Below, in pieces: positions 9,910 through 11,816 of a stretch of 11,816 nt of DNA. The notes under the pieces are model-generated. The model was not told where the DNA came from. It made no database searches and worked only from the letters and a program-made list of their open reading frames with translations. Positions within the stretch are counted from its first letter, which is position 1, and every line of letters starts with the position of its first letter. Source of the stretch: Aquamicrobium sp. GTDB taxonomy: Bacteria > Pseudomonadota > Alphaproteobacteria > Rhizobiales > Rhizobiaceae. The stretch lies in the NCBI GenBank assembly GCA_014860725.1, contig JACZJD010000350.1, positions 1-11,816 on the forward strand, in the 5' to 3' direction. The position numbers and the translations under genes were made by a program.

Positions 9910-10686
9910 TCAGCCGTTGAGCAGGTCCAGCGCCGCGCGATGCAGCTCCGGCGTGGCCGCCGCGACGATGTCGCCCGCCTTCTCCGCCGGCCCGCCGTCC
10001 CAGGTGGTGACGATGCCGCCTGCCCGCTCGATGATCGGCACCAGCGCGACGATGTCGTAGGGCTGAAGCGCCGTCTCGACCACGAGGTCGATGTTGCCGG
10101 CGGCCAGCATCGCATAGGCGTAGCAGTCCGTGCCGTAGCGGGCGAGCCGCACCTCGCCTTCCAGCCGGTCGTAGACCGTGCGCTTGCCGTCGGCGAACAG
10201 GGCGGGCGTGGTGGTGCACAGCGTCGCCTCCGACAGCGATCGCGTCGGCCGCACGCCAAGGCGGCGCGCCCCGCCCGGCCCCTCGTACCAGGCTCCCTCG
10301 CCGTCGGAGAAGAACAGCTCGCCCGTGAAGGGCTGCGACATCATGCCTGCGAGCGCGTCGCCGTCCTCGGTGAGGCCGACCAGCGTGCCCCACAGCGGCA
10401 CGCCGGAGATGAAGGACCGCGTGCCGTCGATGGAGTCGATCACCCAGACATGGCGGCTGTCGCCGTTCTCGACGCCGAACTCCTCGCCGACGATGCCATG
10501 GCCGGGGAACGCCTCGCGGATCAGCGCCCGGATCACCTGCTCCGCCTCGCGGTCCGCCTCCGTCACCGGATCGAAGCCGGCGGCGTGCTTGTTGTCGGAG
10601 ACGAGCCCCGCCATGCGGAAGCGCGGCAGCGTCTCGCGCGCCGCGGCCGCGGCGATCCGCTGCATGAAATCCTTCTCGATCCTCAT
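9910..10686 (-). CDS. hisN: Histidinol-phosphatase, inositol-monophosphatase family
   Basis: A Mg2+-dependent phosphatase of 258 aa in the IMPase superfamily. The sequence resembles the rhizobial HisN branch, which converts L-histidinol phosphate to L-histidinol, the next-to-last stage of histidine synthesis. Metal-binding motifs are DPVTEADR (39-46), GEE (67-69), DSIDGTR (84-90) with D84 and D87, and QPYDIVALVPIIERAGG (208-224) with D211. The second motif has Ser85 where DPIDGT is usual. The ATG at 10686 has AGGAGAGGG 4 bases upstream. A general inositol phosphatase (SuhB) role is the alternative; the FDPVTEADREAE and FISGVPLWGT segments favour HisN. It is monocistronic here, convergent with the hydrolase and divergent from a small RNA gene. 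Confidence 0.85.
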   Translation of the reverse strand: MRIEKDFMQRIAAAAARETLPRFRMAGLVSDNKHAAGFDPVTEADREAEQVIRALIREAFPGHGIVGEEFGVENGDSRHVWVIDSIDGTRSFISGVPLWGTLVGLTEDGDALAGMMSQPFTGELFFSDGEGAWYEGPGGARRLGVRPTRSLSEATLCTTTPALFADGKRTVYDRLEGEVRLARYGTDCYAYAMLAAGNIDLVVETALQPYDIVALVPIIERAGGIVTTWDGGPAEKAGDIVAAATPELHRAALDLLNG

Positions 10687-10747: not shown

Positions 10748-10776
10748 TGTTCACAACTCTGTTCACGGGCTGAACA
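10748..10776. promoter_or_regulatory. Cluster of TGTTCA boxes between hisN and the small RNA
   Basis: TGTTCAC occurs at 10748-10754 and again at 10760-10766, 12 bp apart. The second copy forms a perfect inverted repeat with TGAACA (10771-10776) around 5 bases. The cluster ends 6 bp before the -35 box of the small RNA promoter and lies upstream of hisN on the other strand, so a bound regulator could act on both. The same hexamer recurs as TGAACAGG/CCTGTTCA in the first stem of the small RNA. The cognate factor is not recognised. Confidence 0.45.
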
Positions 10777-10782
10777 ATCGGG

Positions 10783-10810
10783 TTGACATTTGTGCGTTGC
10801 AGCATAAATT
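10783..10810 (+). promoter_or_regulatory. Sigma70-like promoter of the small RNA gene
   Basis: A perfect TTGACA (10783-10788) is followed after 16 bases by TAAATT (10805-10810). Transcription would begin at about 10816-10817, exactly at the foot of the first stem-loop of the small RNA. This is the best-matching housekeeping promoter in the window. Confidence 0.7.
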
Positions 10811-10815
10811 TGACG

Positions 10816-10902
10816 GTGAACAGGGCGACCTGTTCATGCCCTCCTTGGGCGTTTCCTCCCTAGACTTGGGCCGCGCCGTGCACAACGGTGCGGTCATTTT
10901 TT
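10816..10902 (+). ncRNA. Small regulatory RNA with anti-Shine-Dalgarno motifs (suhB/cuckoo-like)
   Basis: The predicted transcript is about 87 nt with three stem-loops in a row. The first is TGAACAGG (10817-10824) with CCTGTTCA (10829-10836) around a GCGA tetraloop. The second is GCCC (10838-10841) with GGGC (10847-10850), exposing UCCUU. The third is the terminator. CCUCCUU at 10840-10846 equals the anti-Shine-Dalgarno end of 16S rRNA, and a second CCUCCC lies at 10855-10860. Hairpins presenting CCUCC motifs are typical of the alphaproteobacterial suhB/cuckoo RNAs (CcsR in Rhodobacter, alpha-r14 in rhizobia). The suhB family takes its name from a nearby IMPase-family gene, and here hisN of that family is next door. 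It likely blocks ribosome sites of target mRNAs. Family assignment is from memory; an untranslated leader is unlikely because the following gene is on the other strand. Confidence 0.7.
10869..10902 (+). terminator. Rho-independent terminator of the small RNA
   Basis: GGCCGCGCCG (10869-10878) pairs with CGGTGCGGTC (10886-10895) over 10 bp, including two G-U pairs, around a 7-base loop. It is followed by A and six Ts (10897-10902). This is a clear intrinsic terminator on the plus strand. Confidence 0.85.
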
Positions 10903-10938
10903 ATGGAGATTGGCTTCTTATCGGGATTTGCCCTGCGC

Positions 10939-10954: not shown

Positions 10955-11816
10955 CTATTCCGCGGCCAGCGGCATCGCGCCGGGGTCGAGGAGCTGGTCG
11001 GGTATCGCGATCAGCTCGGCGCAGAACCGCGTCATGTCGGCGGCGAGCGCCGCGAAGCCGAAGGTCGGCTCGCAGGTGCGCTCGTTGAGATAGAGCCCGC
11101 GATTGACCTCGATCTGCAGCGCATGCAGGCCCTGGGCCGGCCGGCCGTAATGCTCGGTGATGAAGCCGCCGGCATAGGGCTTGTTGTGGGCGACGTTGTA
11201 GCCCATCCCGACCAGGATCGCGATCGCCGCTTCCGTCAGCGCCGGGGCGCAGGCCGTGCCGAAGCGGTCTCCGACGATGAAGTCCGGCCGGGTCCGGCCG
11301 TCGCCGACCCTGACGCTTGCCGGCATCGAGTGGCAGTCGACCAGCACCGCGAAGCCGAAGGCCGCATGCGTGTGCGACAGCAGCCGCCCGAGCTGCTCGT
11401 GATAGGGCTTGTAGATCTCCTCGACGCGCGCCACCGCCTCGCCGAGCGGCAGCCTGCCGGCATAGATCTCCAGCCCCTCGCCGACGAGGCGCGGCACGGT
11501 GCCGAGCCCGCCCGCCACCCGCGCCGAGCGCGTGTTGGCGTAGGATGGCAGCGGGTCCGTGAACATGCGCGGGTCGAGCTCCCATGGCTCGCGGTTGACG
11601 TCGAGATAGGCGCGCGGGAAGTTCGCCGCCAGCATCGGCGCGCCGAGCGCGACCGCGCCGCCGAACAGCTCGTCTACGAAGCAGTCCTCGGAGCGGCGGA
11701 TCGACACCGCGTCGAGCCTGCTCATGGCCAGGAAGCGCGGCGGATAGAGCCGGCCGCTGTGCGGCGAGTTGAAGACGAAGGGCACCCGCTGCTCGGCGGG
11801 GCTGGCGACCACGAAG
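10955..11816 (-). CDS. N-formylglutamate amidohydrolase family protein (5' end outside window)
   Basis: This metal-dependent amidohydrolase (PF05013-type) would release formate and glutamate from N-formyl-L-glutamate. About 286 residues are visible; the family is usually 270-300 aa, so only a few N-terminal residues are missing. A GTG at 11812 is in frame, but the codon before it is also sense, and relatives carry a few residues before the PFVFNSPHSG motif, so the true start is probably beyond the right edge. Family motifs, from the N-terminus, are NSPHSGRLYPP, EDCFVDELF, FPRAYLDVNREPWELDP, VDCHSMP and PYAGGFITEHYG, then LQIEVNRGLYLNE near the end. The HSG, DCHS and E-x-NR residues are the expected metal and substrate ligands. 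It converges on the small RNA gene, 52 bp from its terminator. A HutG role in histidine breakdown is possible, but no other hut gene is visible. Confidence 0.88.
   Translation of the reverse strand, partial: FVVASPAEQRVPFVFNSPHSGRLYPPRFLAMSRLDAVSIRRSEDCFVDELFGGAVALGAPMLAANFPRAYLDVNREPWELDPRMFTDPLPSYANTRSARVAGGLGTVPRLVGEGLEIYAGRLPLGEAVARVEEIYKPYHEQLGRLLSHTHAAFGFAVLVDCHSMPASVRVGDGRTRPDFIVGDRFGTACAPALTEAAIAILVGMGYNVAHNKPYAGGFITEHYGRPAQGLHALQIEVNRGLYLNERTCEPTFGFAALAADMTRFCAELIAIPDQLLDPGAMPLAAE

Follow-up and report, generated by a model that had tools for sequence, protein, structure and literature searches.

The window, the whole stretch of 11,816 nt analysed here, carries a small RNA gene on the plus strand between two minus-strand protein genes, together with the following features.

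9910 to 10686, minus strand: hisN, histidinol-phosphatase of the IMPase family, divergent neighbour (TIGR02067 307.8 bits, cut-off 275.15; PF00459)
10783 to 10788, plus strand: -35 box TTGACA (pattern scan; TTGAC invariant in 79 aligned sequences)
10790 to 10804, plus strand: PhaR/AniA operator-like dyad between the -35 and -10 boxes (consensus match)
10805 to 10810, plus strand: -10 box TAAATT (pattern scan)
10817 to 10902, plus strand: mmgR (suhB family) small RNA of about 83-87 nt (RF00519 match, fold; 5' end predicted at 10816-10820)
10818 to 10835, plus strand: hairpin 1, seven pairs and a GCGA tetraloop (fold and covariation; mostly outside the Rfam model)
10836 to 10852, plus strand: hairpin 2, with the 5-nt loop UCCUU (fold)
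10852 to 10861, plus strand: conserved 10-mer UUUCCUCCCU, likely pairing site (alignment, single match in the window)
10869 to 10902, plus strand: intrinsic terminator, an 11-pair stem at 10869-10895 and T6 at 10897-10902 (pattern scan, fold, alignment)
10955 to 11812, minus strand: N-formylglutamate amidohydrolase family gene, convergent neighbour (PF05013 253.2 bits)

The succession of promoter, tetraloop hairpin, second hairpin, CCUCCC motif and terminator that an earlier note had read at this locus is present in full on the plus strand (10783-10902), and the IMPase-family gene that it placed alongside is hisN by a TIGR02067 score above cut-off. Against the HutG equivalog TIGR02017, the product of the amidohydrolase gene stays under the cut-off.

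An Rfam scan of the whole window, with matches listed up to E 1, gave RF00519 (suhB, that is, mmgR) as the sole match, at 10831-10909 on the plus strand, with 62 bits against a curated cut-off of 41 (E 4.2e-11) and spanning model positions 1-77 of 77. This full-length match bears out the suhB assignment for which the earlier note had proposed the scan, and the RNA gene is the local mmgR orthologue, typical of its family and an RNA already described. The same note had suggested that it may be a divergent member on account of a CCUCCC motif lying mostly outside a clear loop; that label is mistaken, since CCTCCC falls outside the hairpins in the Rfam consensus structure too, as is normal for the family, and since the full model is matched at this score. 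In its complete form our reading, which we hold with a probability of roughly 0.88, is that the locus encodes an orthologue of mmgR (alpha-r8 / RF00519), a small RNA that acts in trans and carries a sigma-70-type promoter and a terminator of its own, under the PhaR/Hfq mechanism proposed below. It is based on sequence, predicted structure with covariation, the common locus and an operator-like promoter motif. That the series of elements arose by chance is unlikely, given the Rfam match, a TTGAC invariant across 79 sequences, an alignment in which 96.4% of cells pair under the fold of the window, and a 10-mer found once in the window where 0.01 occurrences are expected.

The CcsR1-4 or cuckoo RNAs of Rhodobacter reportedly have an anti-Shine-Dalgarno character, as does the RNA here, and the earlier note's view of that character is right. 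One could therefore suppose that the locus encodes an anti-Shine-Dalgarno RNA of the AbcR (ar15) or cuckoo/CcsR kind instead of mmgR, the more so as RF00519 and ar15 belong to the same Rfam clan, CL00108, and weak RF00519 matches elsewhere in the relatives are ar15. We consider this highly improbable: of the clan, Rfam retains RF00519 at the locus, with 62 bits, and ar15 (RF02345), which would be the best clan match in an AbcR RNA, is not among the matches in the window to E 1. As far as the extracted literature describes them, the Rhodobacter RNAs lie in an operon with a DUF1127 gene and are processed by RNase E, of which there is no sign here; the RNA is single, and a Pfam scan found no DUF1127 among five neighbours and six small ORFs, so that the proposed cuckoo type is not upheld.

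The -35 and -10 boxes are separated by a spacer of 16. Taken alone, the promoter scan is weak (two promoter-like sites against 0.8 expected), as is the terminator scan (seven terminator-like sites against 4.8 expected); sequence and conservation together nevertheless point to a promoter and an intrinsic terminator belonging to the RNA itself, as in other mmgR/suhB RNAs. From the position of the -10 box and the operator-to-start distance of 13 in S. meliloti (PMC12542648, extract), the RNA is predicted to start near 10816-10820 and hence to be about 83-87 nt long. The earlier length of about 87 nt lies within this estimate, with the 5' end a predicted one.

Between the two boxes, TGCGTTGCAGCA at 10793-10804 agrees with the PhaR consensus TGCRNYGCASMA at each of its 12 positions; that consensus comes from Bradyrhizobium, where it was derived by footprinting and aligning promoters (PMC6201568, extract). 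The relaxed PhaR pattern occurs twice in the window, both strands counted, where 0.26 occurrences are expected, and at least two were found in 8 of 200 shuffles. The predicted operator recurs among the orthologues: the full consensus is exact in 65 of 79 mmgR promoters and missing from 14, and TGC-N3-GCA is present in 78 of 79. In S. meliloti, where the operator of mmgR is given as CAATTGTGCACCGCAGCATTA against CATTTGTGCGTTGCAGCATAA in the window, PhaR is reported to shift the mmgR promoter in EMSA and to lose the shift once the palindrome is mutated (PMC12542648, extract); reviews, in the parts used here, name NtrC as inducer and AniA as repressor of mmgR. Separately, 5 of the 9 copies of TGTTCA/TGAACA in the window lie at 10748-10836, three of them before the -35 box and the other two as the pair that forms hairpin 1. 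The corresponding 70 nt upstream hold none in 75 of 76 relatives checked (out of 78 with the RNA), and the cluster is possibly a local operator.

The predicted fold of the 87 nt at 10817-10903 has an energy of -42.8 kcal/mol (z -5.4), a value equalled by 0 of 200 shuffles. To follow the fold across relatives we used an alignment of the window and 78 relatives, counted as 75 distinct rows, over which 12 pairs are changed on both sides against 7.3 in shuffles. None of 500 shuffles reached any of five pairing measures, and every slid control came out lower (slid structures pair 34-52% of cells), a comparison in which the structure, being taken from the window's own fold, is favoured over its slid versions. 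Kinship among sequences can beat shuffles without any structure, and more weight goes to the count of doubly changed pairs.

The three stems, a number that also matches the stem-loops given for MmgR in a review (PMC7143759, extract), differ in how they bear on the compensatory changes that the earlier note had suggested looking for. Hairpin 1 has them in full: all 7 of its pairs are changed on both sides among the 75 distinct sequences, 92.1% of cells are paired, and each pair is broken in 1 to 13 of the 75 rows. The terminator has them at 5 of 11 pairs (98.3% of cells paired). Hairpin 2, with 98.1% of cells paired and a nearly invariant stem, has no pair changed on both sides in the 75 distinct rows and hence no covariation support. 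Unlike in the Rfam suhB model, hairpin 1 lies here mostly upstream of the model, which begins at 10831, inside the hairpin, and leaves that portion unpaired.

The second hairpin had been described as presenting CCUCCUU in its loop. The hairpin stands, but in the predicted fold the first two C belong to the stem and the loop is UCCUU only. CCTCCC sits in the single-stranded linker between hairpin 2 and the terminator, within the unpaired, conserved UUUCCUCCCU that mmgR/suhB RNAs share, the first U of which can pair in hairpin 2 in the predicted fold. UUUCCUCCCU is exact in 77 of the 79 aligned sequences, which were themselves picked by the exact, overlapping 12-mer TTCCTCCCTAGA, so that invariance inside that 12-mer is by construction. 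Conservation extends to both motifs and is stricter in the linker than in the CCUCCUU loop: CCTCCTT is found in 66 of 79 aligned sequences and 26 of 30 loci of a wider sample, which sustains its conservation but not its rank as main motif, the linker core being kept in 78 of 80 loci (as TTCCTCCCTAGA) and in 30 of 30 Rfam-picked loci of the wider sample (as TTTCCTCCC). Published seed mutations and deletions, so far as the extracts go, target the linker 10-mer, and an S. meliloti mmgR variant without it is reported to over-accumulate PHB (PMC12559287, extract).

An ATG at 10836 opens the frame MPSLGVSSL..., and the stretch might accordingly be read as encoding a small peptide. The ATG is found in 69 of 79 sequences, with MPSLGVSSL in 62 of those 69, and 48 of these frames run through the examined stretch without a stop. 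Yet the ATG is missing in 10 of 79, the other 21 of the 69 frames are ended by stops at differing positions, the core-to-T-run distance shifts by non-multiples of three in 19 of 79, the overlapping ORF has no Pfam match, and in the predicted fold the ATG lies at the foot of hairpin 2; sameness within the 12-mer by which the sequences were picked is no proof of coding. We reject the peptide on the frame stops, the frame-breaking length changes and the missing Pfam match, and give it very little chance.

Relatives were sought with the hisN protein in one genome per bacterial or archaeal species, and the best 80 of the 205 found were kept; these include many Mesorhizobium, Phyllobacterium, Aquamicrobium and Chelativorans, the nearest being a Hyphomicrobiales MAG (85%). 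Upstream of hisN, 78 of the 80 loci carry the exact core on the other strand, the gene neighbourhood common to mmgR orthologues, and a relative of the amidohydrolase gene is present in all 80. On the hisN side of the RNA, between 89 and 9903 of the window, lie gltD, gltB and PLP-dependent aldolase-type, IbpA-like small heat shock and lysophospholipase-like genes; relatives of the last four occur in the flanks of 64, 72, 75 and 77 of the 80 loci, respectively, and a gltD relative in 2, gltD lying mostly beyond the flank.

We take SMc04042 and SMc04043 of Sinorhizobium meliloti to be its hisN and amidohydrolase genes. The extracted text of PMC2573895 places S. meliloti mmgR (sm8, equal to suhB) on the forward strand between these two genes, both on the reverse strand, and that of PMC5596092 places an RF00519 RNA of M. 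huakuii on the plus strand between two minus-strand genes. The original suhB naming invites the view that the RNA acts in cis, as an element or leader of the gene next to it, and it does stand immediately upstream of hisN. It lies, however, on the strand opposite hisN, faces a convergent gene downstream and has its own terminator, and the cis reading was judged unlikely by Corbino et al. (PMC1273637, extract); on strand and terminator we reject it as extremely improbable.

In two loci labelled Pseudaminobacter (L050 and L079) the core is absent upstream of hisN, and no remnant was seen by eye in 403 nt. Neither genome has RF00519 above cut-off: L050 gives no match, and the match of L079 is really ar15. 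A joint loss of the RNA and PHB genes is unsupported, as both genomes retain PhaR and phasins, along with hisN and the amidohydrolase gene. Among 11 close relatives, with 150 first-look candidates scored per genome, RF00519 gave one match over cut-off in 9 and two in none, and extra mmgR copies were dismissed, the 11 weaker matches (29.6-40.5 bits) being ar15/AbcR at 11 of 11 loci. Single copy holds only for these close relatives, several matches being listed in many genomes of an order-wide sample. In that sample, from the order of genome G003, 115 of 150 genomes have RF00519 over cut-off under stricter filters that lose weak matches. Thirty of the best-scoring order-wide loci have, in the stretch examined, a hisN relative in 20 and an amidohydrolase relative in 26.

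All 12 relatives searched have the PhaR DNA-binding domain (PF07879) and phasins. Across four relatives, pattern TTGTGCNNYGCANCA occurs 48 times, compared with once for the backward control, and in G001 and G003, the two genomes compared by coordinates, both phasin matches have such a site 79-209 bp away. Of 30 phasin matches, 22 have a relaxed PhaR pattern in the 460-bp stretch surrounding their start, compared with 170 among 3000 random windows taken from other loci; this is a count of presence only, as positions of reverse-strand sites are unreliable. The PhaR-phasin link rests on these pattern counts and phasin matches and not on mechanical ORF calls beside PhaR-like sites, of which 9 of 20 have a Pfam match, one being a phasin.

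Pairing with the linker is no stronger at phasin start regions than at controls (medians -10.9 kcal/mol for 9 loci, -11.0 for 13 and -14.1 for 3, against -11.9 for the 77 starts used as controls, of which 65 are hisN), a test that covered 25 of 30 phasin loci with start codons set by eye and left out L153, L156, L169, L171 and L172. Phasin mRNAs as preferred pairing partners thus find no support in start-region pairing. Three phasin-family genes without the PhaR pattern (L155, L157 and L158) have ribosome-binding sites of GGGAG/GGGGAG type that pair well with the linker, at -14.1, -24.8 and -14.0 kcal/mol, in a small, hand-grouped sample. The part of PMC12559287 used here states that no direct base-pairing by MmgR is known.

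The most likely mechanism would be an Hfq-assisted RNA that blocks ribosome-binding sites and is repressed by PhaR while PHB is scarce. By analogy with relatives, PhaR (AniA) would bind between the -35 and -10 boxes and repress mmgR; as PHB accumulates, PhaR would be drawn to the granules and mmgR released; and the RNA, with Hfq, would pair through UUUCCUCCCU with ribosome-binding sites and lower translation. Downstream, as in S. meliloti, phasins and PHB may be held down, directly or indirectly. The role published for MmgR concerns PHB storage: in the extracted reports, S. meliloti MmgR depends on Hfq and holds down phasins and PHB. Those on its Caulobacter sibling SisA describe a broad target set and pairing through the 10-mer in a reporter system, abolished by C40G. 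Given that target set, the broad translational repressor suggested by the earlier note may still apply. SisA is also reported to be sequestered by the sponge CrfA, and the mmgR orthologue could by that parallel act mainly as partner of a sponge RNA; as Caulobacter SisA is reported still to repress mRNAs directly, we regard this as very unlikely and keep Hfq-assisted repression as the likelier reading.

We further posit, at slightly less than even odds, an incoherent feed-forward loop set by PHB granules, in which PhaR would repress both the phasin genes and mmgR and MmgR would lower the phasins, as an old feature of the order and not a trait of S. meliloti, with the covarying 5' hairpin a functional module mostly outside the Rfam model. 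The wiring fits well in close relatives; of the 30 promoters of the wider, score-picked set, 5 have the relaxed full PhaR pattern, 16 TGC-N3-GCA only and 9 neither.

Among known systems, the closest likeness is to MmgR / Sm8 / SmelC689 of S. meliloti, in family, strand, place between two minus-strand genes and the PhaR operator predicted here in the promoter, and at 77 nt it is of the same length class. The suhB RNA of Corbino et al. 2005 (PMC1273637, extract) was already given a promoter, a terminator, a short 5' helix, a conserved unstructured stretch and the strand opposite suhB, as here. SisA-D of Caulobacter crescentus (alpha-R8) are of the same family and share the 10-mer with its anti-Shine-Dalgarno signature (PMC12559287, extract), but are described as four copies with unlike promoters, in contrast to the one match over cut-off in most close relatives here. 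The annotation itself is obtainable by an Rfam scan, and mmgR is already known. The comparison supports the mmgR locus, linker and PhaR operator as kept among close relatives of Mesorhizobium and Phyllobacterium, and these conserved relatives could guide the choice of tests for direct mRNA targets of MmgR.
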